Source: a virus. Taken from it: a stretch of DNA of 36,265 nt. Positions 20,689-36,265 of this stretch are shown here, piece by piece. Both the position numbers and the translations under genes were made by a program. The stretch covers positions 1-36,265 of the IMG/VR virus record IMGVR_UViG_3300009503_000580. One strand, 5' to 3'. The notes under the pieces were generated by a model. That model worked only from the letters and a program-made list of their open reading frames with translations. It was not told the DNA's origin and searched no databases. The number at the start of each line of letters is the position of its first letter. The first letter of the stretch is position 1.

Positions 20689-20706
20689 TTTAGAACGGAG
20701 GTAAAT

Positions 20707-20976
20707 ATGGAAGAGCAAAAACTTACAAACGTATCTGATGTACCATATCCATTAATTACTGAAGGGCAACCAAAGTCAACAATTGTAGCTAAAACAAAAG
20801 AATGGATTGGGCGCAAATTCGGTATAGTAGTTATGTGGATTCTCATCGGTATGTTCCTAGGTTCTTTTATCTCATATAAATTCTTCCAGTGGCGAATCAA
20901 CGAGAGTATTCAAGTAGGTGGATTTGTGTACGAGCATAAAGTTTACGACGTAACTGAAAGACTTCTGAAGAAATGA
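20707..20976 (+). CDS. single-pass membrane protein, 89 aa
   Basis: One transmembrane helix is visible at about residues 39-61 (FGIVVMWILIGMFLGSFISYK), preceded by a mostly polar N-terminus and followed by a short tail. No family recognised. SD GGAGG precedes ATG 20707. Its stop overlaps the lytic transglycosylase start (ATGA), so a membrane or lysis-related role with that enzyme, such as a spanin or anchor, is possible but not shown. Confidence 0.55.
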   Translation: MEEQKLTNVSDVPYPLITEGQPKSTIVAKTKEWIGRKFGIVVMWILIGMFLGSFISYKFFQWRINESIQVGGFVYEHKVYDVTERLLKK

Positions 20977-21464
20977 TGTTCATTGTAAGAGTAGGTATAA
21001 GTGGAGTTGTCTTCGTGCTATCACTTCTCTTGTGGCTACAGACGTCTGTACTTATAACACCATTCAATCCGAGTATTCCTGAAAACATAGAAGTAGATCG
21101 AATCTCTCAGTTCTTTCGGATTCAGACAACGTTAGCTCAAAAGATTGTAGAGATTAGCAGAGATGAAGGACTCCCACCATCACTAGTAGCAGCACTTATC
21201 TACTCGGAATCTTCATTTCGTCCGAATGCTGTCTCTCCGAAGAACTACTACGGACTTACACAAGTTCCTTGGCATATTCCTTATCAAGACATCAATATAC
21301 GATTGGGCATCCGAATTCTTAAGGAGAAATTACGGATAACTAGAGGAGACCTTCTAACCGCTCTCAAACTCTACAAAGGCTACGAGCTCAACGATCCAAG
21401 AGGGCACGAACAAGCGCAGAAAGTGATTAACCTAATGAAACAACTCGAACGCCAACAACGATAG
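20973..21464 (+). CDS. lytic transglycosylase (SLT domain) with N-terminal membrane anchor
   Basis: Residues 5-30 are a hydrophobic signal or anchor. Residues about 52-160 resemble a soluble lytic transglycosylase domain: GLPPSLVAALIYSESSF with the catalytic Glu79 in the ES motif, NYYGLTQVP, and ALKLYKGY in place of the usual A-YN-G. It would cleave peptidoglycan without hydrolysis, for lysis or for cell-wall passage during entry. It overlaps the upstream membrane gene by 4 bp. Confidence 0.8.
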   Translation: MMFIVRVGISGVVFVLSLLLWLQTSVLITPFNPSIPENIEVDRISQFFRIQTTLAQKIVEISRDEGLPPSLVAALIYSESSFRPNAVSPKNYYGLTQVPWHIPYQDINIRLGIRILKEKLRITRGDLLTALKLYKGYELNDPRGHEQAQKVINLMKQLERQQR

Positions 21465-21507
21465 TTTTCAACTAGAAAAATTACTTATAAGAATGGAGGG
21501 CAAAACA

Positions 21508-21906
21508 GTGTTAAGGTTACTACCTTTACTTCTCTTCTTAGTTTTATTATTAGGAGGATGTAGCGGAAAGAGTAACGATACTATGCAAGCAAAACCCCCA
21601 GAACTTCCGCAAATACTACAATTCGAAGAGTTTGGAACACGAATAACATTTCACACAAATTCACTTGAATATTACATCACGAATGAAGGATTAAGTGTAA
21701 AAACTCCTCCTCTCTCAGGGTATGATTGGGCTATTCATATCGATTGTCATTATGGTACATACTTTCTCTATAAAAGCGAGTTCGTAAATGGTGAACTCGT
21801 TGGACAACATATTACTCGAACTTTTCCTCGTTTAGATCCTAAAAACCTAGTGGAAAGAGTTTGTGAATATGCTCTCTTTAGAGCAAAACAAGGAGAAGAA
21901 AAATGA
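21508..21906 (+). CDS. lipoprotein, 132 aa
   Basis: GTG 21508 gives a signal peptide with a lipobox LGGC, Cys18. The earlier ATG 21493 is part of the ATGGAGG SD. The mature part has an AIHIDCHYGTYFL segment and a second Cys in VERVCEYAL near the C-terminus, which could form a disulfide. No family recognised. The same Cys-spaced plan recurs in the next gene and at 25376. Phage lipoproteins can act in superinfection exclusion or as outer-membrane lysis components. Confidence 0.65.
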   Translation: MLRLLPLLLFLVLLLGGCSGKSNDTMQAKPPELPQILQFEEFGTRITFHTNSLEYYITNEGLSVKTPPLSGYDWAIHIDCHYGTYFLYKSEFVNGELVGQHITRTFPRLDPKNLVERVCEYALFRAKQGEEK

Positions 21907-22313
21907 AACGCCTACTAACATTAGCAATTTTATTTCTAGTACTAACACTCGTTGGATGTAAACAGCTACGTGCTAATACTCAACATCCGACAATTAAGAT
22001 CGATGACTATAAAATTACGTTACTCACGCAATACGCGGTCTTCTCATACAGATATGAATTTTCACCAACGCTACAAGTCAGCATTCCCGGAGTAATCGTA
22101 TCCCAAAATCAGAACGTTAACGTTATAATCGATTGTACACACAAGCGTATAAGAGCTGAGAGACAAATTGAGAAATACGATCTATATTTCGACAGAAGAG
22201 AGACTGTCACATCTGCAAAGTTCTCACAAGTTAATAATAAAGACAGAGAACTGCTCGAGAAAGCATGCGAAGGCGCAGCAAAAAACGTACAAAGAGCTGC
22301 GTTAGGTCTCTAA
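21903..22313 (+). CDS. lipoprotein, 136 aa, distant paralog of its upstream neighbour
   Basis: Signal peptide with lipobox LVGC (Cys19). The mature region has NVIIDCTHKR and, near the C-terminus, LEKACEGAA: the same I-D-C then late Cys pattern as the preceding lipoprotein. Start ATG overlaps the upstream stop by 4 bp and AAGGAG precedes it. No family recognised. The pair may have arisen by duplication and now be very diverged. Confidence 0.6.
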   Translation: MKRLLTLAILFLVLTLVGCKQLRANTQHPTIKIDDYKITLLTQYAVFSYRYEFSPTLQVSIPGVIVSQNQNVNVIIDCTHKRIRAERQIEKYDLYFDRRETVTSAKFSQVNNKDRELLEKACEGAAKNVQRAALGL

Positions 22314-22325
22314 TGGAGAACGTAT

Positions 22326-22550
22326 ATGTATACAGAATCAACAACAATATTACAATACGGACCCGGATCTAATTACGGTTATGTATGTGGTGGATATACG
22401 CACGGTAATACTAACGACAGTATCTCCACTATAGACCGCTTTCAGTTTCCATTCGATAGTGGTACCGCAAATTATGTAGGTAATTCGAGTGGAAGTAGAG
22501 ATGCATTAAGCGCTACCGATGGAGTAGACTTTACGACAATGTTTGTATGA
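22326..22550 (+). CDS. one-unit member of the VCGG/IDRFQFPFD repeat-protein family (orphan cassette)
   Basis: The 74 residues contain the family N-cap (QYGPGSNYGYVCGG), one variable loop, one framework unit (STIDRFQFPFDSGT ... GSRDALSA) and the C-cap (TDGVDFTTMFV). It is exactly what remains if all internal units are deleted between repeats. It lies 4.2 kb before the main array, separated by helicase genes. It has a weak SD (GGAGAACGTAT). Its last framework stretch GSRDALSA is shared with the C-terminus of the gene at 28178, hinting at recombination. It may be a relic or a donor cassette. Confidence 0.7.
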   Translation: MYTESTTILQYGPGSNYGYVCGGYTHGNTNDSISTIDRFQFPFDSGTANYVGNSSGSRDALSATDGVDFTTMFV

Positions 22551-22572
22551 TCAAAATAAAGGAGGGACATAA

Positions 22573-22755
22573 ATGACATATGAACATATGAAGAATCTGA
22601 AAAAAATATTGAGTGTCTTACTCAAAGACGAAGAGGTCGAGCAAGAACAAATACCGATCACAGAAAAACAACCTACGCAACTTAACTTGTTTGACGACAT
22701 AGAGAACGAAAAAGAAGTACATAGAAAAACCAATGAAGATCGAAGTCAGAGATGA
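22573..22755 (+). CDS. small protein with sliding-clamp-binding motif, 60 aa
   Basis: The protein is short, charged and probably disordered apart from an N-terminal helix. Residues 36-40 are QLNLF followed by DD, matching the bacterial beta-clamp-binding pentapeptide QL-x-LF. It overlaps the downstream helicase by 23 bp and has a strong SD (GGAGGGAC). A peptide that recruits or blocks the host DnaN clamp, or tethers the helicase to it, is the obvious hypothesis. No family recognised. Confidence 0.6.
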   Translation: MTYEHMKNLKKILSVLLKDEEVEQEQIPITEKQPTQLNLFDDIENEKEVHRKTNEDRSQR

Positions 22756-24028
22756 GAACTTTGCAGTACTAAAAGAGCATACTAAAGAGGAATGGACACA
22801 GATTAGGTCTCTTCTCTCTTATAAAACTCAAACGTTTATAAGAGGAAGATGGACTGCTATTCCTCACTACTTGATTCACGGTAAGACGAAAGTCTTTCCT
22901 ACAGGCCTACTGCACATCATAACAAGTAAGTTCAAAGTAGAGATAGCCGATCTTCGTCCTAAACGCATACCAATTACTCTACCCGAAAATATTCCTCTCG
23001 ATACATACCAGAAACAGATAATGCGTGATGCCTTACGCTATCAACGTGCTATCGTTAATGTACCTACAGGTGCTGGTAAGACGTATACATTCTCAACGTT
23101 TGCGGCATATATTGATAGACCAACTATCATAATCACTCCTACTCAAGAGATACTTAGTCAAGTTGTTGAGCATATTACAAAATACACAACAGACATACGA
23201 GTTATGTGGAACACATCTCACACTACTTTTGATAAACGTATAATAGTAACAACAAGTGGCACACTGAACTCTCGATTCGACTTCCTCAAAGAAGAAGGCA
23301 AAAAGATAGAAGTAATGATTAGTGATGAAGCTCATTTCTACGGAGCCGATTCGTTCTTCAGAATAAGCCATCTGTTTCCGAATGCCTGGATTCGTTTAGG
23401 CTTCAGCGGTACACCAATAGGTCGTTCTGATAATGCAGACTTAAGAACACTAAGTGTGTTCTCTCCCCATATCGTAACCTATCAAGGAGAAATAGAAAGA
23501 ATAGTACCCGTAAAAGTTTTTCTAGTAGATTACTGTAGCAACGCAAGATGGAGTGATCCCGAAGATTACGAACAACTACTGGAAGACGTAGAGCGTCAAG
23601 AAGCGATTGTGGAGCTAATAAATATCCTCAGGAAAGAAAAGTTGACACCTTATCTCGTATTTGTTGATAGAATCAAATACGGAGAAACACTTTCAGAAAA
23701 GCTTTCGATTCCGCTCATTACATCTACCTCACTCGAGCGAGACACAATCTTCGACGATCTCAGAAACGAAAAGTTAGAAGGTATCGTAACTACAATTGGA
23801 TGGATAGGTTTAGACATACCTAATCTGAAAGCAGTAGTGAATACTTCACGAGAGACTACGTCTATTAGTCTAGGACAAAAAGCTGGCCGTGTCAGACGTA
23901 AAATGGGAAAGGATGTAGGCATCGTATTCGACTTTCTAGATCGTGGAAGACTACCAAGTAGATGGGCCCGTAAGAGGCGAAAGACATACGAAAGCTTAGG
24001 ATTCGAAGTAATACAAACAAAACTTTAA
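22733..24028 (+). CDS. SF2 DNA helicase, UvsW-like
   Basis: Superfamily 2 motifs in order: Q-motif-like LDTYQKQIM, motif I VPTGAGKT (near residues 109-116), TIIITPT, motif II ISDEAH (near 197), FSGTPIG (motif III), VFVDRIKYGE (IV region), and VRRKMGKD with QKAGRVR (VI). The N-terminal 80 residues carry a small extra domain. UvsW-type helicases resolve branched recombination intermediates and R-loops and switch T4 from origin-driven to recombination-driven replication. This fits the RecA, UvsY-like and Rad50/Mre11 set here. The start overlaps the clamp-motif gene. Confidence 0.8.
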   Translation: MKIEVRDENFAVLKEHTKEEWTQIRSLLSYKTQTFIRGRWTAIPHYLIHGKTKVFPTGLLHIITSKFKVEIADLRPKRIPITLPENIPLDTYQKQIMRDALRYQRAIVNVPTGAGKTYTFSTFAAYIDRPTIIITPTQEILSQVVEHITKYTTDIRVMWNTSHTTFDKRIIVTTSGTLNSRFDFLKEEGKKIEVMISDEAHFYGADSFFRISHLFPNAWIRLGFSGTPIGRSDNADLRTLSVFSPHIVTYQGEIERIVPVKVFLVDYCSNARWSDPEDYEQLLEDVERQEAIVELINILRKEKLTPYLVFVDRIKYGETLSEKLSIPLITSTSLERDTIFDDLRNEKLEGIVTTIGWIGLDIPNLKAVVNTSRETTSISLGQKAGRVRRKMGKDVGIVFDFLDRGRLPSRWARKRRKTYESLGFEVIQTKL

Positions 24029-24047
24029 AGTAAAAAGGAGGGATTTG

Positions 24048-24971
24048 ATGGAAGAGCAAAAACAGACCACAGAGCTCACAGAGCTAACAAACATTACTAA
24101 AAATATTTTCAATGCACTCGCTAAAGACGAGCAACTTGTATCATCTCTGCCCGTTGAACTTAATCAGAAACTGGTGGAGGTCACAGATATAATTTCTCAG
24201 AATAAAACACTGCCACAACTATACGGAGACATACTTACAGAAATTCCAGTATCTCAATCATTGTTTCAAGATGTATGCGTACAATACGAAATCCACTTCA
24301 CACCACACCGCAAACTGAGACAGGCTATGTTAGAACTAGACGGTAGACTGAGAGCACTCTATGCCGCAAAAGATGGACACGCAGAAGCATATTATAAAGT
24401 AGAGCAGACGAAATTGAGACTCGAAGAGCTCGAGAACGAGCTCGCATCCGTAACAGATGACTTTGAGAGACGGAGACTAGAACTTCGAATAGGTAAGTTA
24501 AGATACGAACTCGAAAAGAAGCAAAGAGACCTTGAGAACGCAATTCACTTAGTAAAAGATGCAATGTTGAAAGTAGCGATGCATCAAACACTAATAGACC
24601 GTCTTAAGAAAGAAGTAGAAGAAAGCGGTCTGAGCTTTGAAGAAGCTGAAATGGTATACTTTGTAATGTATTTCACAAAGGATGCAGAAGTACAGCTCCG
24701 TACGATGGGTAGAGTAGATACAGGAACGTTTGGTGCTATAGCACAATTACCCGAGGGCATACGAAAGAAGGTATTATGGAACATCGAATTCATAAGAAAG
24801 AAGCTCCAAGAAGAAAACTACAACGGAGATTATCTACATATCGTCTACAGAGACATCTTATTACCAAAGAAGACTGGAGAGAACGAGATAGAAGGATGCA
24901 ACGTCAAAGAGTTCACCGGTCTAGAGCCCATTAAAGTACTAGCTAAAAGCGACGGACAGACACCAGAATAG
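24048..24971 (+). CDS. coiled-coil hypothetical protein, 307 aa
   Basis: No family recognised. Residues about 85-205 form a long coiled coil (KLRLEELENELASV, LRIGKLRYELEKK). The C-terminal third (MVYFVMYFTKDAEVQL to GNEIEG region) is globular. ATG 24048 is chosen over an upstream in-frame TTG, with AAGGAGGG at ideal spacing. It is the last gene before a strong hairpin at 25003. Function unknown. Confidence 0.55.
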   Translation: MEEQKQTTELTELTNITKNIFNALAKDEQLVSSLPVELNQKLVEVTDIISQNKTLPQLYGDILTEIPVSQSLFQDVCVQYEIHFTPHRKLRQAMLELDGRLRALYAAKDGHAEAYYKVEQTKLRLEELENELASVTDDFERRRLELRIGKLRYELEKKQRDLENAIHLVKDAMLKVAMHQTLIDRLKKEVEESGLSFEEAEMVYFVMYFTKDAEVQLRTMGRVDTGTFGAIAQLPEGIRKKVLWNIEFIRKKLQEENYNGDYLHIVYRDILLPKKTGENEIEGCNVKEFTGLEPIKVLAKSDGQTPE

Positions 24972-25002
24972 TAGAAGAGTACGAAATGTTTTAGTTATAA
25001 GA

Positions 25003-25039
25003 GTGCCGAATGTTTAGCTATCAACTAAGCATTCGGCAC
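25003..25039 (+). terminator. 15-bp hairpin, probable terminator or 5' structure
   Basis: GTGCCGAATGTTTAG and CTAAGCATTCGGCAC pair over 15 bp with one G-U, around a 7-nt loop. It lies between two genes, 31 bp after one and 12 nt before the next SD. A clear U-tract is lacking (AAATCTTTG follows). Confidence 0.6.
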
Positions 25040-25067
25040 AAATCTTTGAAAAAGGAGGATCCTATCA

Positions 25068-25400
25068 ATGACTTCAAATGACAAACAGCCACAAGAAAAA
25101 TCCTTAAGAGATAATATATACGTAATCTTATATGATATCGTTGACGATGAAGTGACACTAAGAATCGTTCGTATGAAGGATGATGTTAATCCTAACACTT
25201 ACATACTAGAACCAAATATTGGCAGTACAGACTTGAAATACTACGATCCTGTAGCTATTGAGTCAGCGATCGAAGAAGAAGTTGCACTTATTAGTTTAGG
25301 TCCAAACAAAAAGGATATTAGTGTTAGAGTATACTCCGACTACAATCTTCTTCTTAAGAAGGAACTAACTGTCACATGGGAAGAAAAAGACGTCAACTAA
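25068..25400 (+). CDS. hypothetical protein, 110 aa
   Basis: No family recognised. Strand-rich in the first half (YVILYDIVDD, VTLRIVRM) and acidic overall. Strong SD (AAAGGAGGA). It overlaps the next gene by 25 bp. Confidence 0.55.
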   Translation: MTSNDKQPQEKSLRDNIYVILYDIVDDEVTLRIVRMKDDVNPNTYILEPNIGSTDLKYYDPVAIESAIEEEVALISLGPNKKDISVRVYSDYNLLLKKELTVTWEEKDVN

Positions 25401-25774
25401 CTCTATCGGATATAATTATAATACTTCTTTGTATAACCGCCACTCTTACTATCGTCTCGTATGCTACGACTCCGGCTATCTCATTCTTCTCACAATTACA
25501 TACAATCGAAACACGCTATGTCAAAGTTACGATACAAGACTCAGGATATCATCTTCTTACAGAGCAACCAATATTCGATATGCCTGTTCGTATAGAAACT
25601 AGAGACGGAATGACATATCCCGGAATAATAACTATCAATTGTAGTAAGCGAACATACACTATACATTCTTACTATATCAATACGACTACAAAATTACCTC
25701 GGGGAAGATTACAAGACTTCCTCGAGGACTATTGTATACGATTTCCGTCTTCGTATAGACATGTTATAAGATAA
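25376..25774 (+). CDS. membrane-anchored protein with the IDC/INC two-cysteine plan, 132 aa
   Basis: Residues 11-35 are a hydrophobic anchor (DIIIILLCITATLTIVSYA) after a basic N-terminus (GRKRR), so the rest is probably outside the cytoplasm. ITINCSKRTYTIHS and a later Cys in EDYCIRF match in position the pairs in the two lipoproteins at 21508 and 21903. No family recognised. The SD is weak or absent and the gene overlaps the previous one by 25 bp, suggesting coupling. Confidence 0.5.
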   Translation: MGRKRRQLTLSDIIIILLCITATLTIVSYATTPAISFFSQLHTIETRYVKVTIQDSGYHLLTEQPIFDMPVRIETRDGMTYPGIITINCSKRTYTIHSYYINTTTKLPRGRLQDFLEDYCIRFPSSYRHVIR

Positions 25775-25788
25775 ATGGAGGTATATTA

Positions 25789-26721
25789 ATGCGAATGTCC
25801 GATGAAGAATTCGTACATAGATATCATAAAGCTTTGGAATTACACCTACGGGGTTATACATTAGCGGGTGCTATACGGAGATTCGAACTACCTACAAATT
25901 GGAGGACACGAGCTAAGAAACTAGGCCTTCCGGGCAAGTTACTTGAACTCGCATTGGGATTCGAATACCCCGACTTCGAAACGAAGTGGCAGAATCTCAT
26001 AGACGAGTTCTTAAGCTACGAAACATGTTATTCGCGGCCTAGCGTACATGCTCTCTTTGTAAAACATTTCCCTGACTATCCGTTTTCATTCGAAGTCGCA
26101 AGTCAGTATGCAAAGTACTTAAATCTTCCAATGCCGTCTCAATTAATCAAACAACGAAAGGAGAGTAAGAAGATGATACCTCTTAAAGAACTATACGAAC
26201 GAAAACCGGAAGTTCGAGCAATCGCGGAAAGCGTAATTGAAAATAGATTAGAGAAGTACATACTCCGCTATCTCTTTACGAGAGAACCAAAAACATTAGA
26301 AAGATATTTTCCATCCGGGTGGACTTATATTTCGAAAGAAGGTAAGCCGTACATAAGACTTACGATCTGTCAGAATACGCAACCAGTGACTGAGTTAGTT
26401 AAAAGCAACATAGAGCAGCTATTCGCAAAATCGAAGGTAAGCGTTCCTAACATCGATGTACTATGGAAGTCACCTAATCTCTACGTAGACATTGAACTTC
26501 AGTCAACAATGTTCATTCTTTTAGCAACAAGTGATATTCTTGATACATACGAATTAGATCCTACGATAGCTTCACAGATTCTCAATACCGACGACGAGAA
26601 CGATCTTGCTGATCTACTATACGACGAAATCGATGATGATACGCTCATAGAACACCTTCGACTAAGAAAAGTATACCAACAAATATTCTCAGATCTTGCA
26701 ACATCACTAACTACAAGTTGA
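25789..26721 (+). CDS. hypothetical protein with HTH-like N-terminus, 310 aa
   Basis: No family recognised. Residues about 5-50 (ALELHLRGYTLAGAIRRFELP ... RAKKLG pattern) resemble a helix-turn-helix. The rest is mixed alpha/beta and acidic near the end (DDENDLADLLYDEIDDD). ATG 25789 follows ATGGAGG. It sits directly before the repeat-protein array; a regulatory role for the array is possible but unsupported. Confidence 0.5.
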   Translation: MRMSDEEFVHRYHKALELHLRGYTLAGAIRRFELPTNWRTRAKKLGLPGKLLELALGFEYPDFETKWQNLIDEFLSYETCYSRPSVHALFVKHFPDYPFSFEVASQYAKYLNLPMPSQLIKQRKESKKMIPLKELYERKPEVRAIAESVIENRLEKYILRYLFTREPKTLERYFPSGWTYISKEGKPYIRLTICQNTQPVTELVKSNIEQLFAKSKVSVPNIDVLWKSPNLYVDIELQSTMFILLATSDILDTYELDPTIASQILNTDDENDLADLLYDEIDDDTLIEHLRLRKVYQQIFSDLATSLTTS

Positions 26722-26767
26722 CGAAAAAGAGCATACAAAAATCCCTAAAAAAAATGGAGGGCGTATA

Positions 26768-27136
26768 ATGTATACAGACTCAAATTCAACAACACAACGA
26801 TATGGGTCTGGATCTAACTATGGTTGAGGTTGGAATGGCGGTTATAGAGGCTTTTACAGTATCTCTACTATAGACCGTTTTCAATTTCCATTCGATAGTG
26901 GAACTGCAAATAAAGTTGGTAATTTAAGTGGAAATAGACGTTTCTCAAGTGCTAACAATAGCAGTACATACGGTTATGTATGCGGAGGTGAAGATTCCAA
27001 CTACTATCTCTCTACCATAGACCACGTCCAATTTCCATTTGATAATGGTACAACAAATCTGGTAGGCAACTTAAGCGAAGATAGAGCGTTATTAGGTGCT
27101 ACAGATGGCGTAGACTTCGTAACAATGTTTGTGTAA
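26768..27136 (+). pseudogene. repeat-family member disrupted by an in-frame TGA (two units)
   Basis: The frame begins with the family N-cap (MYTDSNSTTQRYGSGSNYG), and an intact SD precedes it, but codon 20 is TGA (26825-26827). Compared with siblings, 9 bases of the TATGTATGTGGAGG segment are missing, which creates the stop without changing the frame. After it, two full units and the C-cap (VDFVTMFV) continue. TGA is a normal stop in many genes here, so recoding is unlikely. It is either a pseudogene or a silent cassette that can be restored by recombination. Confidence 0.75.
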
Positions 27137-27203
27137 TTGTAACTAATAAGATAATAAACAAAACACAAAAACGTACAAAAAATCTCCAAAATGAGGAGTG
27201 TAT

Positions 27204-28133
27204 ATGTGTACAAACTCAAATCTAACGACACAGCGATATGGACCTGGATCAAATTATGGTTATGTATGTGGAGGATCACGTAGTAGTAACTATTTCTCTA
27301 CCATAGATCGCTTCCAGTTTCCATTTGATAGTGGTACAACAAATCAGGTGGGCAATCTGAGTGGAAGTAGAAAAGAGTCAAGTGCTAATAATAGTAGTAC
27401 ATACGGTTATGTATGCGGAGGATATAGTAGTCAAATCCTCTCAGTCATAAACCGCTTTCAGTTTCCATTTGATAGCGGTACTGCAAACCACGTAGGTAAT
27501 TTGTGTAGGAACAGAAAACAACTATGCGCCAATAATAGCAGTACACATGGTTATGTATGTGGTGGAACAGAAATCTTCTGGATTTCTACTATAGATCGCT
27601 TTCAATTTCCGTTTGATGAAGGTACAGCAAATCTGATAGGCAATTTGAGTAGACGTAGAAGTTGGTCGAGTGCTAACAATAGTAGTACATACGGTTATGT
27701 ATGTGGTAGTTGGTATAGCATCTTAGACCGTTTCCAATTTCCATTCGATAATGGCTCAGTAAGTCAGGTAGGCAATTTAAGTGAGGATAGAACAGGCTTA
27801 AGTACTAACAATAGTAGTACGTACGGATATGTATGTGGTGGGCATAGTAGTAATGGCATTCTTTCTGCCATAGATCGCTTTCAGTTTCCATTTGATAGTG
27901 GTACAGCAAATCAAGTGGGTAATTTGAGTGGAAGTAGAACGTTATTAAGTGCTAATAATAGTAGCACACACGGTTACGTATGTGGTGGATGGATTGGTGA
28001 TCCTCTCTCCATTATAGACTGCTTTCAATTTCCATTCGATAGTGGTACAGCAAGTCAGATAGGCAATTTGAGTGGAAGTAGAAACGACTTGAGTGCTATA
28101 GATGGTGTAGACTTCGTGACAATGTTTGTATGA
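27204..28133 (+). CDS. repeat-family protein, six units, intact
   Basis: N-cap, six framework units and C-cap form one continuous frame of 309 codons. The six loops differ in sequence and length. Unit 4 has one of the shortest spacers in the array (GYVCGS then WYSILDR). ATG 27204 follows AGGAG at 5-nt spacing; the GTG at 27198 is part of the SD. Six units could close a small propeller or form a fibre segment. It is likely an exported virion or adhesion protein, but no signal peptide is seen. Function is inference from family resemblance. Confidence 0.75.
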   Translation: MCTNSNLTTQRYGPGSNYGYVCGGSRSSNYFSTIDRFQFPFDSGTTNQVGNLSGSRKESSANNSSTYGYVCGGYSSQILSVINRFQFPFDSGTANHVGNLCRNRKQLCANNSSTHGYVCGGTEIFWISTIDRFQFPFDEGTANLIGNLSRRRSWSSANNSSTYGYVCGSWYSILDRFQFPFDNGSVSQVGNLSEDRTGLSTNNSSTYGYVCGGHSSNGILSAIDRFQFPFDSGTANQVGNLSGSRTLLSANNSSTHGYVCGGWIGDPLSIIDCFQFPFDSGTASQIGNLSGSRNDLSAIDGVDFVTMFV

Positions 28134-28177
28134 ATAAGAGACAACAAATTAAGTCTCTAAAAATAGAGAGGTGTATA

Positions 28178-29170
28178 ATGTATATAGCAGATGCAAATTC
28201 AACAACACAACAATATGGACCAGGATCAAATTATGGTTATGTATGCGGAGGATATAGTGGAGACGGAAATAAAGCATCTTGGTACTCTATTATAGACCGT
28301 TTCCAATTTCCGTTTGATAGTGGTACTGCAAATAAAGTTGGTAACTTAAGTAGACGCAGACGTGGCTCAAGCGCTAATAATAGTAGTACGTACGGGTATG
28401 TATATGGTGGAGACAGTGGATATAATGATACTACGGTTTCTACTATAGACCGCTTTCAGTTTCCATTTGATAGCGGTACTGCAAATAAAGTTGGTAATTT
28501 AAGCAAACGTAGGAGTGCATCAGCCGCCAATAATAGTAGCACGTACGGTTACGTATGTGGCGGTGATTACGGATACTACAATAACTATCTCTTTATCATA
28601 GACCGCTTCCAATTTTCATTCGATAGTGGAACTACAAATCAAGTAGGCAACCTAAGTGGAAGTAGAAGTGACTTGAGTGCTAACAATAGTAGCACATACG
28701 GTTATGTATGCGGAGGATTTAGGGGTGGATACCAAATCGTAGACGTGTACTCCACTATAGACCGCTTCCAATTTCCATTCGATAGTGGTACTGCAAATCA
28801 AGTAGGTAATTTGAGCGTAAGTAGAGAATGGTTAAGTGCTAACAACAGTAGCACACACAGCTATGTATGTGGTGGGTATAATCATTATAATGGCACTCTC
28901 TCTACTATAGATCGCTTTCAGTTTCCTTTTGATAGTGGCACTGCAAATCATGTAGGTAATTTGAGTAGGAATAACAGTTGCTCAAGTGCTAACAATAGTA
29001 GCGTATATGGTTATGTATGTGGTGGTGGAAGTGATGATTTCAGTTCTACTATAGACCGCTTCCAGTTTCCGTTTGATAGTAGCATTACAAGTTATGTAGG
29101 TAATTTAAGTGGAAGTAGGGATGCATTAAGCGCTGTAGATGGTGTAGACTTTGTAACGATGTTTGTATGA
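28178..29170 (+). CDS. repeat-family protein, six units, intact
   Basis: Start ATG 28178 follows AGAGGTG. Six framework units with six different loops (YSGDGNKASWY, DSGYNDTTV, DYGYYNNYL, FRGGYQIVDVY, YNHYNGTL, GSDDFS), then the C-cap. Loop residues are rich in Gly, Tyr, Asn, Asp and Ser, as in binding loops. The spacer after it matches the spacer before it in part, showing whole-gene duplication. The last unit shares GSRDALSA with the orphan at 22326. Confidence 0.75.
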   Translation: MYIADANSTTQQYGPGSNYGYVCGGYSGDGNKASWYSIIDRFQFPFDSGTANKVGNLSRRRRGSSANNSSTYGYVYGGDSGYNDTTVSTIDRFQFPFDSGTANKVGNLSKRRSASAANNSSTYGYVCGGDYGYYNNYLFIIDRFQFSFDSGTTNQVGNLSGSRSDLSANNSSTYGYVCGGFRGGYQIVDVYSTIDRFQFPFDSGTANQVGNLSVSREWLSANNSSTHSYVCGGYNHYNGTLSTIDRFQFPFDSGTANHVGNLSRNNSCSSANNSSVYGYVCGGGSDDFSSTIDRFQFPFDSSITSYVGNLSGSRDALSAVDGVDFVTMFV

Positions 29171-29212
29171 ATAATAAGAGACAATATTTACTAAGTATCT
29201 AAAAAAATGTAT

Positions 29213-29719
29213 ATGTATACAGAATCGACAGCACAACGATACGGTCCGGGGTCTAACTATGGTTACGTATATGGCGGATGGGATAGCTCTCACATTTTCT
29301 CTACCATAGACCGCTTCCAATTCCCATTTGATAGTGGTACGGCAAGTCATGTAGGTAATTTGAGTGGAAGCAGAGAATGGCTAAGTGCTAACAATAGTAG
29401 CACATACGGTTATGTATGTGGAGGAACTTCAGTCTTCTCATGGATCTCTACCATAGACCGCTTCCAATTTCCATTTGATGATGGTACTACAAATCGGGTA
29501 GGCAATTTGAGTGAAAGTAGAAGCGATTTGAGTGCTAATAATAGTAGCACATACGGTTATGTATGCGGAGGATGGAATAAGAGTGACAATTTCTCTATTA
29601 TAGATCGCGTTCAATTTCCATTCGATGGTGGTACTACAAACTACGTAGGTGATTTGAGTGGAAGAAGAAGTGCGCTGAGTGCTACAGATGGCGTAGACTT
29701 CGTAACAATGTTTGTGTAA
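29213..29719 (+). CDS. repeat-family protein, three units, no ribosome-binding site
   Basis: The frame is intact (N-cap, three units, C-cap), but the SD found before every main-array sibling is missing. The bases before the start read CTAAAAAAATGTAT where relatives have a GAGG block, so about 10 bases seem to be deleted. ATG 29207 is an alternative start two codons earlier. Translation would be poor unless coupled to the upstream gene 37 bp away. Its third loop, WNKSDN, recurs in unit 6 of the gene at 30844. Confidence 0.65.
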   Translation: MYTESTAQRYGPGSNYGYVYGGWDSSHIFSTIDRFQFPFDSGTASHVGNLSGSREWLSANNSSTYGYVCGGTSVFSWISTIDRFQFPFDDGTTNRVGNLSESRSDLSANNSSTYGYVCGGWNKSDNFSIIDRVQFPFDGGTTNYVGDLSGRRSALSATDGVDFVTMFV

Positions 29720-29782
29720 TTGTAAGCTAACAAAACAACAAACAAAAAACGTACAAAAAATCTCCAAAATGGAGGGCGTAAT

Positions 29783-30781
29783 ATGCAAAATCCAACAACA
29801 CAACAATATGGACCAGGATCTAATTATGGTTATGTATGTGGCGGATCACGCGGATATAGTTCTTACTCTACTATAGACCGCTTCCAATTTTCATTCGATA
29901 GTGGTACTGCGAATAAAGTTGGCAACTTAAGTAGACGTAGATATGACTCAAGTGCTAACAATAGTAGTACGTACGGATATGTATGCGGAGGAATTGCAGT
30001 CACACGAACTTTCGTCTTATGGACCTCAGCCTCATGGACCTCTATCATAGACCGCTTTCAGTTTCCATTTGATGAGGGTACAACAAATTATGTAGGCAAT
30101 TTGTGTAGACTTAGATGCTGGTCGGGAGCTAATAATAGTAGCACACACGGATATGTAAGCGGAGGATATAATAGTAACTACTATCTCGCTACTATAGACC
30201 GCTTCCAGTTTTCGTTTGATAGTGGTACTGCAAATCAAATAGGTAATTTAAGTGGAAGTAGAGAACGGGTTAGTGCCAACAATAGTAGTACACATGGTTA
30301 TGTATGCGGAGGATATAGTCGTAACAATCTCTCTACTATAGACAGATTCCAGTTTCCATTCGATAGTGGTACTGCAGATTTTGTGTGTAAGTTAAGTAGA
30401 AGTAGAGAGAGCTTAAGTGCTAACAATAGTAGTACGTACGGTTATGTATACGGCGGATGGAGTGTAAGCTGTGGTCACGTCCCTATCATAGACCGCTTCC
30501 AATTTCTATTCGATGATGGTGTTGCAAGTCAGGTAGGTGATTTGAGTGGGAGTAGAAGCTGGTCGGGCGCTAATAATAGTAGCACACACGGATATGTATG
30601 CGGAGGATATTATAGTTTCCAGATGCATCAGGGTAGTCTCGACTGCTACCACTACTCTACTATAGATCGCGTCCAATTCCCATTCGATGGTGGTACTGCA
30701 AATTATGTAGGCAATTTGAGTGGAAAAAGAAGTGCGCTGAGTGCTACAGATGGCGTAGACTTCGTAACAATGTTTGTGTAA
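29783..30781 (+). CDS. repeat-family protein, six units, intact
   Basis: ATG 29783 follows ATGGAGGG. Six units, including two of the longest loops in the array (IAVTRTFVLWTSASWTS in unit 2 and YYSFQMHQGSLDCYHY in unit 6). The N-cap is shortened at its start (MQNPTTQQ). The C-terminal unit carries the variant IDRVQFPFDGGT shared with the gene at 29213, pointing to gene conversion between neighbours. Otherwise the framework is constant. Confidence 0.75.
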   Translation: MQNPTTQQYGPGSNYGYVCGGSRGYSSYSTIDRFQFSFDSGTANKVGNLSRRRYDSSANNSSTYGYVCGGIAVTRTFVLWTSASWTSIIDRFQFPFDEGTTNYVGNLCRLRCWSGANNSSTHGYVSGGYNSNYYLATIDRFQFSFDSGTANQIGNLSGSRERVSANNSSTHGYVCGGYSRNNLSTIDRFQFPFDSGTADFVCKLSRSRESLSANNSSTYGYVYGGWSVSCGHVPIIDRFQFLFDDGVASQVGDLSGSRSWSGANNSSTHGYVCGGYYSFQMHQGSLDCYHYSTIDRVQFPFDGGTANYVGNLSGKRSALSATDGVDFVTMFV

Positions 30782-30843
30782 TTGTAAAGCTAATAAAACA
30801 ATAAACAAAACGTATAAGAATCTCTAAAATGGAGAGCGTAATA

Positions 30844-31795
30844 ATGTATACAGACTCAAATTCAACAGCACAACGATATGGACCAGGATCTAACTATGGT
30901 TACGCATGTGGAGGTTGGGATAGCTATAACCGTCTCTCTACTATAGACCGCTTTCAGTTTCCATTCGATAACGGTACCACAAATCAAGTAGGTAATTTGA
31001 GGGAGAGTAGATTTGCTTCAAGTGCTAACAATAGTAGTACATACGGATATATATATATGTGGTGGTAGTCGTATCTCTACTATAGATCGCTTCCAGTTTC
31101 CGTTCGATAGTGGTACCACAAATCAGGTAGGCAATCTGAGCGAAGATAGAAACAGACTATGTGCCAACAATAGTAGCACACGCGGATATGTATACGGAGG
31201 ATGGAATAGCGGTTATAGCAGTCATAACGATCTCTCTATCATAGACCGCTTTCTGTTTCCATTCGATAGTGGTACTGCAAAACATATAGGCAATCTGAGC
31301 GAAAACAAAAGCAGACTATGTGCTAACAACAGTAGCACACACGGATATGTATGTGGCAGTGGTAGTTGCAACTCTACCATAGACCGCTTCCAGTTTCCAT
31401 TTGATGATGGTACAGCAAATTATGTAGGTAACTTGAGTGGAAGCAGAGGTTGGCTAAGTGCTAACAACAGTAGTACATATGGTTACGTATGTGGTGGAAT
31501 TGATAGTAGTTATTACCCCTCCTCTACTATAGACCGCTTTCAGTTTCCATTTGATAGTGGTACAGCAAATCAAGTAGGTAATTTGAGTGGACGTAGAGCG
31601 TTCCTGAGTGCCAATAATAGTAGCATACACGGATATGTATGCAGCGGATGGAATAAGAGTGATAATCTCTCTACTATAGACCGCTTTCAGTTTCCATTCG
31701 ATAGTGGAACTACAAATCAAGTGGGCAACTTAAGTGGAAGTAGAAGCGACTTGAGTGCTATAGATGGTGTAGACTTTGCGACAATGTTTGTGTAA
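30844..31795 (+). pseudogene. repeat-family gene split by an (AT)6 frameshift; six units if repaired
   Basis: Reading from ATG 30844, the first unit and N-cap are normal. At 31047-31058 the sequence has (AT)6 where siblings have TATGTATGT, adding 4 bases and shifting the frame so that translation ends at TAG 31066-31068. In the shifted frame five more units and the C-cap follow to 31795. Losing two AT repeats, or gaining one, would restore the frame. The location at the start of a loop is suggestive of a slippage switch. It could also be ordinary decay or a read error. Confidence 0.75.
31047..31058 (+). repeat. (AT)6 dinucleotide tract inside coding frame
   Basis: Twelve bases of AT alternation replace the TAT-GTA-TGT codons of the unit consensus. 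The tract makes the gene out of frame by +1. Four or seven AT units would put it back in frame. This is the classic form of a phase-variable dinucleotide repeat, though short. Confidence 0.85.
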
Positions 31796-31841
31796 CAATT
31801 CTGATCTTTTAGAAACTATCCGTATACACTCAATAAAATAC

Positions 31842-31882
31842 TAGTGAAGAGCATATCCAACCGTTAGATGTGCTCTTCACTA
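31842..31882 (+). terminator. 15-bp hairpin after the repeat array
   Basis: TAGTGAAGAGCATAT pairs with ATGTGCTCTTCACTA over 15 bp (one G-U), loop of 11. It lies 46 bp past the last array gene and closes that unit. It lacks a U-tract (TAAAGAAAAA follows), so it may be a terminator or a 5' hairpin of the next message. Confidence 0.55.
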
Positions 31883-31904
31883 AAGAAAAAGTAAGAGGAA
31901 CAAT

Positions 31905-32282
31905 ATGAAACCCGGATTGGAAGCATTAAAACGGACTATAATAATTCTATCTTTGTTGGGAGTACTTCTACAAGCAGCTTCAGACGAGCCTTCACAAATA
32001 CGAATAGCGGATATCGTTTGGCTCTTGATCATAGGAACTATAAATGTAATAGACATCGTCCGTCCACATCACTTAACTATCTTCGAGAAAGGCGTACGAA
32101 TCGTGATAATGGCGCTCACTAACTTCATCTTGATAAGAATGATTGAAGGAGTCATTCCTTTTGAGCTACTTGAGTTCGTCTACTGTCTACTCGTAATGTA
32201 TGTTTTCATTGCAGATGTATTCTACTGGAAACAATTTTATACTCTAACTACGGAGGAGGACAGCAAAAATGAAAATAAATGA
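31905..32282 (+). CDS. membrane protein, about four helices, 125 aa
   Basis: Hydrophobic segments at about residues 10-26, 36-52, 64-82 and 88-108, with a hydrophilic C-terminal tail (TTEEDSKNENK). No family recognised. Size and topology are compatible with a holin but also with many small phage membrane proteins. SD AGAGGAAC. It overlaps the UvsY-like gene by 14 bp. Confidence 0.55.
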   Translation: MKPGLEALKRTIIILSLLGVLLQAASDEPSQIRIADIVWLLIIGTINVIDIVRPHHLTIFEKGVRIVIMALTNFILIRMIEGVIPFELLEFVYCLLVMYVFIADVFYWKQFYTLTTEEDSKNENK

Positions 32283-32679
32283 GATACATCAACTTATTGA
32301 GAATGAGTTACGAATTACTGAAGAAAATCTCGACAAGTGCATGTTAGAACAAGGAGCGTTATTCGCAAACTACGCAGTTCGACTTGCGGCTCTCAGAGCT
32401 AAATATGATATAAAGAAAGTAGAATTGCAAGCACTCGAAGCAACACTTGGTAGAGAATACAGAGAAAAACTAACGAAAGTAACAGAAAAAGCAGTCGAGG
32501 AAGCTGTCATGAGCGACGAACGTTGGAAGCAAGCGAACGAAGAACTCATTAACGTCAAAGAAGATATGTTGATCATCGAAGCGATCGTTAACGCTCTCAT
32601 ACAAAAGAAAGAAATGTTAGTTGCATATACGAATCTAATAAAAACGAGATCGTTTCAAGGAGAACGGAATGGCTCATGA
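32269..32679 (+). CDS. UvsY-like recombination mediator (putative)
   Basis: The 136-residue, all-helical protein starts MKINEIHQLIENELRI and continues with LRAKYDIKKVELQALEATLGREYREK and a C-terminal helix pair. This plan (N-terminal acidic helix, K/E coiled coil, C-terminal helix with a short polar end) resembles T4 UvsY, which loads the RecA-like UvsX onto gp32-coated ssDNA. Sequence identity looks low, so this is inference from size, pattern and the presence of UvsX-, gp32- and UvsW-like genes. SD GGAGGA precedes the ATG. Confidence 0.45.
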   Translation: MKINEIHQLIENELRITEENLDKCMLEQGALFANYAVRLAALRAKYDIKKVELQALEATLGREYREKLTKVTEKAVEEAVMSDERWKQANEELINVKEDMLIIEAIVNALIQKKEMLVAYTNLIKTRSFQGERNGS

Positions 32680-32896
32680 GTTATTTAGTAAGCTCCATAG
32701 ATGGCTTCCCAGACACGAAATCTCAAAAGCGATCGACTACTATACGACATACGATAGTATTACGTATGCAGCTCTATACATACTATCTGTAACTAACAAC
32801 TATTATTTGGCAGGACACCTTTCTGAGAGCGAGTACGAGAATATCGTACAGCTATTAAGCGCATACGAGCCATCTATAGACAGAATATTATATTAA
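32669..32896 (+). CDS. small hypothetical protein, 75 aa
   Basis: No family recognised. Helical and aromatic-rich, with repeated Tyr (IDYYTTYDSITYAALY). SD AAGGAGAA. It overlaps the UvsY-like gene by 11 bp. Confidence 0.5.
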   Translation: MAHELFSKLHRWLPRHEISKAIDYYTTYDSITYAALYILSVTNNYYLAGHLSESEYENIVQLLSAYEPSIDRILY

Positions 32897-32916
32897 TAAA
32901 AAGTAAGAGGTACAAA

Positions 32917-33138
32917 GTGAAAAAGTTCAGAGTAATAAGAGTGCACATAATAGGTGAACGTACTGTATATAAAAATCCTACGCGTATGTACAAGTTTCTC
33001 ATAGACCCAAATGGACTTGAGGCATTTGTAGTCCTAAAAGACGAAGATGGAAAAATGGACATAGAGCTTGCTACAGATATACACTACGACTACTCACTTC
33101 TCAAGACAGAAGAAGGATTGTTTGCAGTTAAGAAATAG
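32917..33138 (+). CDS. small hypothetical protein, 73 aa, GTG start
   Basis: No family recognised. Strand-rich with basic N-terminus (KKFRVIRVHIIG) and charged loops (KDEDGKMDIEL). GTG 32917 follows AAGAGG. It ends 13 bp before the Rad50 C-half gene and is probably co-transcribed with it. Confidence 0.5.
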   Translation: MKKFRVIRVHIIGERTVYKNPTRMYKFLIDPNGLEAFVVLKDEDGKMDIELATDIHYDYSLLKTEEGLFAVKK

Positions 33139-33151
33139 TGCTGGAGGAAAA

Positions 33152-33700
33152 ATGTATAAAGATCTTACGATTTATCTCAATCATCTGAGAACACAAACGA
33201 ATGAGCTATCCACGAGAATCCAACAAACGCAAGAACTGATGGAGAAACTACAAAAAGCTGCCGACTATCTCAAAGCTGTAAAAACAAATATAATCAAAGA
33301 GACAATCGAGATATCAACTTCGATCGTTAACTCTCTTATACAAATACTCGGGCCAGAGTATAGTTTCACTGCAACTATCGAAGAAGACAAATTGAAGTTC
33401 AAGATCCTAAAGAATGGTATTGAGTTCGATCCGAAGTACGAACTTGGGGGTGGAGTCTTAGATCTCATAAGTTTGGGTCTTAGACTTAGTCTCTGGGCTA
33501 TCTCTTCTAGAGCACCGTTGTTAGTACTCGATGAGCCTTTACGATATCTCTCCCGCGAGTATAAGCCAGCAGTAACTAACTTCTTGTCCCAATTATGCCA
33601 AACGCTTGATTTACGTATACTCATCATAACACATGATCCCGAGTTAATAACTGAATCTGAGAACGTCATCGTCTACAGTACTAGAAATCGCGAAAACTAA
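33152..33700 (+). CDS. Rad50/SbcC-like ATPase, C-terminal half only
   Basis: The protein starts with a short coiled coil (residues 1-50) and then has the C-terminal ATPase lobe: signature-type LGGGVLDLISLGLRL (98-111), Walker B LLVLDEP (123-129) with catalytic Glu128, D-loop near 133 and H-loop ITHD (His161). There is no Walker A anywhere in 182 residues, and no zinc hook. ATG 33152 is chosen because GGAGG lies just upstream. It complements the gene at 853-1977, which has Walker A and hook but none of these. Its arm is about 50 residues against about 200 in the N-half. Alternatively it partners a Walker A protein elsewhere. Confidence 0.8.
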   Translation: MYKDLTIYLNHLRTQTNELSTRIQQTQELMEKLQKAADYLKAVKTNIIKETIEISTSIVNSLIQILGPEYSFTATIEEDKLKFKILKNGIEFDPKYELGGGVLDLISLGLRLSLWAISSRAPLLVLDEPLRYLSREYKPAVTNFLSQLCQTLDLRILIITHDPELITESENVIVYSTRNREN

Positions 33701-33740
33701 CAAATCAAATAGACAAACTTTAGACGTGAGAGGAGGAATG

Positions 33741-34328
33741 ATGCGATGGTATGGTAAATGGGCGGGTGAACCTAGAGGAATTCCAGAAGACACTACACGA
33801 TGTATTGTATCTACTATCGACGAAAAAACAAAACTGTCAAAACAATGCGGTCGAAAGAGAGGATACGGACCTAACGGCTTATTCTGTAAGCAACACGCAG
33901 ACATGCTCACACGTAGCATAAAGTTACAGATACCAGAAGACGAGCCTGAAGCGAATCCGAACGTGAATCCTACGGATACGATAGATATCATAAAGAAAAC
34001 TTTTGCGGAACTGAAAGAGCAAATTGAGGTTGCAGTCAGAATAGCAAAAACTCAAGACGTATACGAAGGCGCAGAACATCTCAGAAAACACGCCATATCA
34101 ACTTACGAACGTTGTAACGAAGTCATAAGTATCTTACTCAGTAACTTCGACAACGTGACAACAAAAAAACTAGGACTATACAAACTTGCTCCTGACTTCT
34201 ATAGTTTCTTGCCTACGTCAATAAAGAGAGACATTCCTTACGAAGAGATTACTAAGAAAGTGGAGAAGCTTGAGAGTGCGATCATAGACGAGGTAGAAAA
34301 ACTATGTAGAACGCAGGAGATAAAATGA
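33741..34328 (+). CDS. zinc-finger protein with helical C-terminus, 195 aa
   Basis: Residues about 18-55 hold a Cys/His motif: RC, then QCGRKR, GYGPNGLFC and KQH, the RC-x-QC-x-G-x-C-x-H plan found in small phage zinc fingers. The rest (residues 75-195) is helical and charged. Two adjacent ATGs (33738, 33741) follow AGGAGG; the second is better spaced. Function unknown. Confidence 0.55.
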   Translation: MRWYGKWAGEPRGIPEDTTRCIVSTIDEKTKLSKQCGRKRGYGPNGLFCKQHADMLTRSIKLQIPEDEPEANPNVNPTDTIDIIKKTFAELKEQIEVAVRIAKTQDVYEGAEHLRKHAISTYERCNEVISILLSNFDNVTTKKLGLYKLAPDFYSFLPTSIKRDIPYEEITKKVEKLESAIIDEVEKLCRTQEIK

Positions 34329-34753
34329 AAGGAGTACGCCTTCTAGAAAGATTAACTAATTTATACAAACGTATTTGTGCTAAAAAAGTAGAGGATGCTA
34401 ATAGTTTTATTGCGTTAAGTGAACTCTACACGGATTCACTCGAACTTACAAATCACATCAACATTAAAATTGGAGAGACTCTAGTCCGAGTATTGAGGGA
34501 TATTATCCCTGATATTGAATATCAACAAGGAGATATCGATTCAGACTGGACCGTAATTTATCTACGCTCGGAGACATATGAAAAACGTCTTAGTGAAGAT
34601 ACGGACGAATACTCTGAACCGCTCGACGTGATTATCTCGAGCATATTTCCTCAACTACAACATTATATCAGCTCTTATATTTGGCTTACACAAGAAGAAG
34701 CGACTTGTATACGCGCAAAACTCGTCCGATGGAAGGAGGGACGTAAATGTTAG
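34325..34753 (+). CDS. hypothetical protein, 142 aa
   Basis: No family recognised. Mostly helical with an acidic centre (DIEYQQGDIDSDWT, RLSEDTDEYSEP). Start overlaps the previous stop by 4 bp; SD AGGAG. It overlaps the zinc-ribbon gene downstream by 7 bp. Confidence 0.5.
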   Translation: MKGVRLLERLTNLYKRICAKKVEDANSFIALSELYTDSLELTNHINIKIGETLVRVLRDIIPDIEYQQGDIDSDWTVIYLRSETYEKRLSEDTDEYSEPLDVIISSIFPQLQHYISSYIWLTQEEATCIRAKLVRWKEGRKC

Positions 34754-34968
34754 AAGAAGCATCACCAAGAAAATTTGGGTGGATTTGTCCTAAATGTTCC
34801 AGAGTATTTTCTCCAGCCATACTCATTTGTCCGTTTTGTACGTCAAAAGAAGAGACTATAAACGAACAGTGTGACCACATTTGGGAAGAGTTTAGTATAT
34901 TCGATCCTGAAGTACAGCAAGTACGAATACTACGTAGGTGTGTCAAGTGTGGTCGTCTCACTGTATAA
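34747..34968 (+). CDS. zinc-ribbon protein, 73 aa
   Basis: Two CxxC pairs (WICPKCSR, ICPFCTS) form one ribbon and a third pair (RRCVKCGRL) with an earlier Cys-x-x-His (QCDHIW) could form a second site. SD GGAGGG. No family beyond zinc ribbon. It is the third such small zinc protein in the window. Confidence 0.6.
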   Translation: MLEEASPRKFGWICPKCSRVFSPAILICPFCTSKEETINEQCDHIWEEFSIFDPEVQQVRILRRCVKCGRLTV

Positions 34969-35003
34969 CAAACGAACGTAAATCGTCAATAGGAGTATAA
35001 AAA

Positions 35004-35246
35004 ATGAAGACTAACAATCTTGCTGAAATACTCTTAGAGAGTAAAAGTATATTTCCCGATCTCGTTGAATATACACTTATTGATCAACTACGTACTCATT
35101 CAATACAAATTCAAGATGAAGAACTCGAACACGAACTCAAACGAATGCTCAAAGCTATCGACTACGCACTAGTTCACACACAACTTACTCCAAAACAAAA
35201 ACAGTACTTCAAACGACTACGGAGAGCAGTCAAGGATGCTTTGTAA
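35004..35246 (+). CDS. small helical protein, 80 aa
   Basis: No family recognised. Residues 30-80 are basic helices (LKRMLKAIDYAL, QKQYFKRLRRAVK) with an acidic segment before. SD AGGAG at 34991. It could bind nucleic acid, but no motif proves it. Confidence 0.5.
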   Translation: MKTNNLAEILLESKSIFPDLVEYTLIDQLRTHSIQIQDEELEHELKRMLKAIDYALVHTQLTPKQKQYFKRLRRAVKDAL

Positions 35247-35252
35247 CACACT

Positions 35253-35290
35253 GTAAGCTTACTTGTGATTTATTAGTTCTAAGTCTAGAA
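35253..35290 (+). promoter_or_regulatory. palindrome and small hairpin in the gap before 35316
   Basis: GTAAGCTTAC (35253-35262) is a perfect 10-bp palindrome, and TTCTA/TAGAA with an AGTC loop (35277-35290) forms a small hairpin. The 69-bp gap is AT-rich and ends in the SD AAAGGTGG of the next gene. An operator or weak terminator is possible. Confidence 0.3.
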
Positions 35291-35315
35291 TCTACCGTAG
35301 AAAGGTGGTGAAAAT

Positions 35316-35651
35316 ATGAATTGGTTTTCATCTCTTGTGGATACCGCAAAACGGATCGTAGCGAATATCGTTGATGCTATCGAGAAGCTCGTCAACCAAA
35401 TCAGCAATCAAATCAACAACCAAATCAGTAACGAACTCGACGCAAAAAATACTATTACATCTGAAGAGATAGCTGATAGCGAAAACACATCTACCAAAGA
35501 AACTCCTCGTCGTATAGAAGCCGTAACTCGTACGATCGTCAATCTATTCGTTTCTATTGCAGTTCTCGTTGAAGTCATATATCGTGTAATAAGCACGATA
35601 GTTCAATGTTTAGGCTCACTTTCAACTGCGGCAACAGTAGCGGCTGCTTAA
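35316..35651 (+). CDS. amphipathic/membrane protein with Asn-Gln-Ile repeats, 111 aa
   Basis: Residues 26-43 repeat the pattern NQISNQINNQISNEL, within an amphipathic region that begins FSSLVDTAKRIVANI. Residues about 73-100 are hydrophobic and could span the membrane (IVNLFVSIAVLVEVIYRVI), followed by an Ala-rich tail (TAATVAAA). No family recognised. SD AAAGGTGGTG. It precedes the structural baseplate gene. A lysis or DNA-injection role is conceivable. Confidence 0.5.
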   Translation: MNWFSSLVDTAKRIVANIVDAIEKLVNQISNQINNQISNELDAKNTITSEEIADSENTSTKETPRRIEAVTRTIVNLFVSIAVLVEVIYRVISTIVQCLGSLSTAATVAAA

Positions 35652-35694
35652 GAAGCACACTCGTCTTATATCAACTACCCGAAGAAGGAACAAT

Positions 35695-35751
35695 CCCTTA
35701 GAAAGCAAAAAATCTAAGACTTCTGTTAGTCTTAGAGTAACTTTTCTAGGG
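35695..35751 (+). promoter_or_regulatory. nested hairpin that may cover the baseplate gene SD
   Basis: CTAAGACT / AGTCTTAG (35714-35721 with 35728-35735) form an 8-bp stem with a TCTGTT loop. Outer arms CCCTTAGAAA (35695) and TTTTCTAGGG (35742-35751) can also pair with a bulge, and the right arm runs into the GGGAGG SD. Folding could limit translation of the late structural gene, or act as a terminator for the upstream one. Confidence 0.45.
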
Positions 35752-35759
35752 AGGCGAAA

Positions 35760-36265
35760 ATGTTTGAAGTATTGTTACCTTCTTCTGGTAAAAAAGTTAA
35801 TGTACGCGGGCTAACTCTCAAAGAAGAACTTATGCTTCAATCTTCTCTGCTAATTGAAAATCAATCGCTCTATACAAAATTCACACGCTTAGCAGAGATA
35901 TGTCATAACGCTATTCAGAGCGAGATACCTTTATCTGCTTGGCTTAAGCAGACAACAGAAAACGATCTGCATGTTATTTGTTATGGTATATACTATGACA
36001 CTTACGGTCCAAAGCTCAAACTAACTGTTACATGCCCTAACTGCAACATACCAAATCCGGAGATAATAGTCAATTTAGATAAGATAGAATTATCAGGACA
36101 AGTCAACACCGAAGGTGTTGATATTTTCTCGAATACGAATGTTGTACTCTCAACCGGGTTGGAAGTAGTACTTCATCCGTATATTACATTCGACGATCAA
36201 CTGATAATTCTTACGCAAACTACAGCAGAAGATCTAGTATCTGAAAAACAATTAGCTGCAGCTAA
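35760..36265 (+). CDS. T4-type baseplate protein (gp26-like), 3' truncated by window edge
   Basis: The visible 168 residues start FEVLLPSSGKKVNVRGLTLKEE, then a helical part, LHVICYGIYYDTYG, LTVTCPNCNIP and VNLDKIEL. This matches, as I recall, the T4 base-plate family (PF12322), whose members have an N-terminal LP-G, LT-KEE and a central CPxC. It would be part of the baseplate hub and marks the start of a tail module to the right. The SD GGGAGG overlaps a hairpin. The 3' end is cut off. Confidence 0.65.
   Translation, partial: MFEVLLPSSGKKVNVRGLTLKEELMLQSSLLIENQSLYTKFTRLAEICHNAIQSEIPLSAWLKQTTENDLHVICYGIYYDTYGPKLKLTVTCPNCNIPNPEIIVNLDKIELSGQVNTEGVDIFSNTNVVLSTGLEVVLHPYITFDDQLIILTQTTAEDLVSEKQLAAA

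Follow-up and report, generated by a model that had tools for sequence, protein, structure and literature searches.

An uninterrupted AT run puts most of one phage kelch-like gene out of frame, probably through ordinary loss of a repeat-gene copy

The stretch of DNA analysed here (the window) is a 36,265-base virus record that carries tandem genes of a single kelch-like family, six of them between 26,768 and 31,795 and a seventh, short member at 22,326 (Table 1). The family is built from a repeat of about 48 residues of the type TIDRFQFPFDSGTANQVGNLSGSRxxLSANNSSTHGYVCGG, and its genes end in DGVDFVTMFV or a close variant. Copies c0 to c5 hold one, two, six, six, three and six repeats, respectively, and c6 holds one repeat plus five more in another frame. 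The counts 1, 2, 3 and 6, seen across the seven copies (22326-31795), are all divisors of six; as a speculation, short copies might join into six-blade rings. Elsewhere in the window, one protein (4689-6173) has glutamine amidotransferase and QueC domains, and another (10130-12856) joins, according to Pfam, a uracil-DNA-glycosylase domain, a 3'-5' exonuclease and a family A DNA polymerase.

Table 1 Kelch-like genes of the window and the parts of the interrupted copy c6.
Feature	Positions	Strand	Remarks
c0	22326..22550	+	Intact one-repeat paralog, 74 aa, away from the array
c1	26768..27136	+	Two-repeat paralog interrupted by TGA
c2	27204..28133	+	Intact six-repeat paralog
c3	28178..29170	+	Intact six-repeat paralog
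c4	29207..29719	+	Three-repeat paralog, open frame, leader without Shine-Dalgarno-like stretch
c5	29783..30781	+	Intact six-repeat paralog
c6, frame-0 part	30844..31068	+	74 codons: N-terminal segment and one kelch-like repeat, ends at TAG
(AT)6 tract of c6	31047..31058	+	Cause of the frame change; 4 bases beyond sibling motif length
c6, +1-frame part	31070..31795	+	Five more repeats and the family C-terminal strand, stop-free inside

A family profile of eight members matched the solved structure of Kelch-like protein 12 (KLHL12; E 7e-7), and two of the eight members reached Pfam Kelch_1 (E 8e-5). Judged from sequence and repeat count, the family would adopt a propeller fold. For c3, AlphaFold run from an alignment of eight rows yielded no reliable model (mean pLDDT 38.7), and a Foldseek search with this low-confidence model, to which we give no weight, found no match at E 0.001 or better. 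None of the seven proteins searched matched an NCBIfam entry. As for expression, c4 may be poorly translated, since its leader (29150-29207) is without the Shine-Dalgarno-like stretch found ahead of the other copies. The leaders of those six copies (22300-22328, 26737-26770, 27170-27206, 28146-28180, 29749-29785 and 30809-30846) also hold a CTCC, CTCT or CCCT stretch able in principle to base-pair with the ribosome site (GGAG, AGAG or AGGG). For a hairpin over the ribosome site, pairing across the six leaders was 66.7% in a register one column off and 87.5%, with two pairs changed on both sides, at a slide of +1; a translation-control hairpin is thus possible, and six leaders are too small a sample to claim one.

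The tract itself, ATATATATATAT, lies in the stretch of c6 repeat 1 that codes for the GYVCGG strand, where sibling repeats have a shorter motif, mostly TA(T/C)GTATG(T/C). Among the 17 other motif copies that we compared, six have exactly TATGTATGT, nine have the close variants TATGTATGC or TACGTATGT and two carry other substitutions; judged by eye, all 17 are equal in length and four bases shorter than c6. Reading in frame 0 stops after one repeat at TAG (31066-31068), and the +1 frame then stays open to its own stop at 31793-31795. The preliminary description had reported an AT tract four bases over sibling length in a gene otherwise intact for five further units in the shifted frame, and both its position and the motif copies bear this out; its statement that four or seven AT units would restore the frame is also arithmetically correct. 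Relative to its intact siblings, c6 thus has an interrupted reading frame, as a pseudogene does. We considered, and rejected, a translation restart just past the TAG: in a scan to 31500, the +1 frame has no ATG, GTG or TTG from 31068 until a TTG at 31433.

No other dinucleotide tract of at least five units occurs in the window. Dinucleotide shuffles of the window produced an (AT)6 tract in 0 of 100 cases, and Markov-simulated windows contained (AT)6 or (TA)6 in 1, 7 and 3 of 200 cases at orders 1, 3 and 5, or any six-unit dinucleotide tract in 4, 19 and 16 of 200. Because it appears in none of the shuffles and few of the simulations, the c6 tract is unusual for this sequence, though not extremely so. 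Separately, ACACACAC occurs at 15696-15703 of the window.

The same phage is represented by a second assembly, the 99,356-base contig IMG/VR 3300005573_000071 (G001; locus L009), which matches window positions 19782-36265 (16.5 kb) at 99.958%; the two differ by three substitutions and in the lengths of two A-runs. Two of the substitutions fall within the array (26881 and 31549), and both are synonymous in the repeat frame by reading. The A-runs differ at 26747 (A8 in the window, A7 in the contig) and at 34382 (A6 and A9, in frame), whereas the (AT)6 tract of c6 is identical, so that runs do change length between the two assemblies and the c6 tract did not. Tract length thus differs in 0 of 1 comparison, between consensus assemblies in which minor length variants are invisible. 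The c6 tract is also the only (AT)6 in the 99-kb record. Among viral contigs, neither a pattern from the flank nor a degenerate pattern of the repeat found any relative of the exact locus beyond that record, and a search with the DNA polymerase likewise found that record alone; a search of 50,697 phage records gave no near match.

The agreement between the assemblies bears on the chance that the tract is an assembly or sequencing error. Tandem arrays are hard to assemble, and our analysis used assemblies without reads. Nevertheless, the two assemblies, which likely come from independent samples, agree across the whole array except for two substitutions and one A-run difference, and the repeat cores, each just 75-93% identical to its nearest relative, argue against an error as well. 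We therefore regard an artefact as very unlikely.

The same comparison bears on whether, among phages of one population, slippage of the AT tract switches the full six-repeat c6 protein on and off; the preliminary description had proposed that slippage or unequal exchange could switch the gene in this way. In favour of such switching, the tract lies inside the reading frame, a change in its length alters that frame, every downstream repeat is open and the tract is the longest dinucleotide run of the window. It has exactly six units, which places it just at the cut-off for candidate phase-variable tracts given for dinucleotides in the relevant passages of PMC6321876, whose authors caution there that mutation rates at these cut-off lengths may fall below 1e-5. 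Set against this are that low possible rate, the equal tract length in two assemblies whose A-runs vary, the absence of another such tract from the 99-kb record and the non-AT lesions that break other family copies. Given the identical length and lesions that ordinary loss explains more simply, on/off switching of c6 is unsupported, and we consider it unlikely.

Whether a switch of this kind would be unusual for a phage is a separate matter. Sorensen et al. reportedly described, in 2021, phase-variable receptor-binding proteins governed by polyG tracts in Campylobacter phages. The introduction of a 2023 paper (PMC10579305) cites hypermutable polyG tracts as the basis of phase-variable expression of receptor-binding proteins in these phages, and PMC10877375 also cites the work of Sorensen et al. 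As far as these citing passages go, they lend a switch some precedent and weaken the earlier remark that it would be unusual for a phage. The preliminary description also called the product a phage surface protein, a role that is merely putative for the window; none of the neighbouring genes was identified as structural.

The frames of c6 might also be joined with no change in the DNA, if ribosomes slipped by -2 within the AT run and the tRNAs re-paired perfectly. A shift of -2 leads into the required frame, and each ATA or TAT codon of the run is found again two bases upstream. Against recoding, RNA folding over the tract and the sequence that follows is not unusually stable compared with shuffles (z 0.18), and none of the 17 other motif copies contains such a run; we judge recoding highly improbable. 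A search of the window against Rfam gave no match.

Codon-level comparison speaks to the age of the break. Intact repeats differ from one another with a mean pS of 0.583 and a pN/pS of 0.357, and the shifted c6 repeats differ from intact repeats with a pS of 0.599 and a pN/pS of 0.336; pN/pS thus reveals no relaxation of constraint in the shifted part, and a recent break would show none either. When random substitutions were simulated in the shifted part, the first stop arrived at a median of 22 changes (3% divergence), and by 92 changes in 95% of cases. Because a stop arrives after so few changes and the shifted part is free of stops, the break would be young relative to the divergence among paralogs (mean pS about 0.58); the lack of a stop, together with a codon-level pattern like that of intact copies, likewise points to a recent event. 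The break may therefore be recent relative to paralog divergence, or the shifted stretch may still be used at times, and the data separate neither from the other.

Copy c6 is not alone in being broken. In c1, a TGA at 26825-26827 (codon 20) apparently follows a 9-nt loss in the YVCGG stretch, the same motif that holds the c6 tract. We rejected TGA as a sense codon as an explanation of c1, as TGA terminates 17 of the 45 ORFs counted in the window. Another, distant copy of the family lies in the 99-kb contig (L011) and in two other records (L010 and L012), and in all three a single additional T in repeat 5 breaks it. Within the N-terminal part of this distant copy, L010:10064 and L011:10064 differ in length by an in-frame 6-base repeat unit. 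The record that holds L012, 3300002966, comes from Obsidian Pool, Yellowstone, at 56 °C according to the part of PMC5864196 that describes it, a site given for that record alone. Beyond these, one of three related copies on a Neomarinimicrobiota contig (L029) is broken, with G5 where its sister has G4, on a metagenome-assembled contig whose title gives a coverage of about 6.6 and in which a single-base error is possible. The cultured Synechococcus phage S-SKS1 (HQ633071; L023:1663-6160) has three frame changes in two kelch-like arrays, near locus positions 2985, 3308 and 4850, where single-base sequencing errors are again possible; after about 4850, some nine open repeats stand without an annotated gene, and the next CDS begins at 6226. 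All three complete genes of another locus (L025) are intact, with no broken copy among them. With breaks in c1, c6, the distant copy, the Neomarinimicrobiota contig and S-SKS1 set against this intact locus, frame breaks appear to be common but not universal across the broad family, and the lesions differ.

Broken copies that stay open past the break, which recur in this genome, in the Neomarinimicrobiota contig and in S-SKS1, might act as a silent store that donates repeat variants to expressed copies by recombination. The nearest relatives of the c6 repeats sit in different copies, the last two resembling the last two of c2 and the fourth the first of c4; the final repeats of c4 and c5 share 92.5% identity, which fits repeat exchange or duplication, and there is a gene for a RecA/UvsX-like recombinase. 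The same mosaic, however, would arise if repeats had duplicated and later diverged, and no recent transfer is seen, with just two in-array substitutions between the assemblies, so that such a store strikes us as doubtful. A wider version would make the kelch arrays of several unrelated phages a store of diversity, in which short indels silence all or part of a copy while its blades stay open and slippage or recombination restores it, and in which the AT length of c6 even selects between a 74-residue one-blade protein and a six-blade one. The short c6 product would equal the natural one-blade paralog c0 in length, and its last strand, YIYMWW, recalls the family ending FVTMFV; we think it improbable that the wider version holds.

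We instead favour, as the probable reading, that c6 is a recently broken copy that reflects ordinary birth and loss in a fast-changing repeat family. The same (AT)6 in both assemblies and the unrelated lesions in other copies argue for recurrent copy loss and turnover over a dedicated AT switch. On this reading, the AT-rich motif that codes for Tyr-Val-Cys in the siblings would have become an uninterrupted AT run four bases longer, most simply through one G-to-A change followed by replication slippage. The consequence is that the last five of the six c6 repeats are out of frame; the product would now probably be just a 74-residue one-repeat fragment, with the six-repeat protein presumably lost, and the tract could in principle slip back. 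Several points weaken the copy-loss reading: a gene that is still used or switching would also show unrelaxed constraint, the c6 tract is the longest dinucleotide run and reaches the six-unit cut-off, consensus assemblies hide minor length variants, and the copies of L025 are all intact.

If the tract or the broken copies do switch or recombine, the family would provide variation of a phage repeat protein without a reverse transcriptase, an invertase or a polyG tract. For now, the locus offers a clean example of what is probably the loss of one copy from a kelch family in a phage. In phages, annotated kelch genes may moreover end at frame breaks, as the unannotated open repeats of S-SKS1 illustrate. 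A literature search that combined S-SKS1 and kelch found no paper, nor did a narrow one that combined kelch and phage.

Compared with known systems, the family resembles the Kelch beta-propellers, exemplified by KLHL12, in its profile match and in the six repeats of most long members, and differs in that the phage proteins have about 310-380 aa and just two of eight members reach Kelch_1. The kelch-like proteins of S-SKS1 have repeats about 33% identical to those of the window family, likewise stand in arrays and have broken frames too; they differ in that their arrays are longer, the phage is a marine cyanophage and no AT tract was seen at the breaks. The simple-sequence-repeat contingency loci of Campylobacter, Neisseria and Haemophilus share with c6 a short in-frame repeat whose length alters the frame while the rest of the gene is open; unlike at those loci, the c6 tract is unvaried in two assemblies and at minimum length, and the other broken copies are tract-free. 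The polyG system of Campylobacter phages, as it appears in the citing passages, differs in having a G tract and reported phase-variable expression, against an AT tract of the same length in two assemblies, and is like c6 in placing within a phage gene a repeat tract able to switch its frame.
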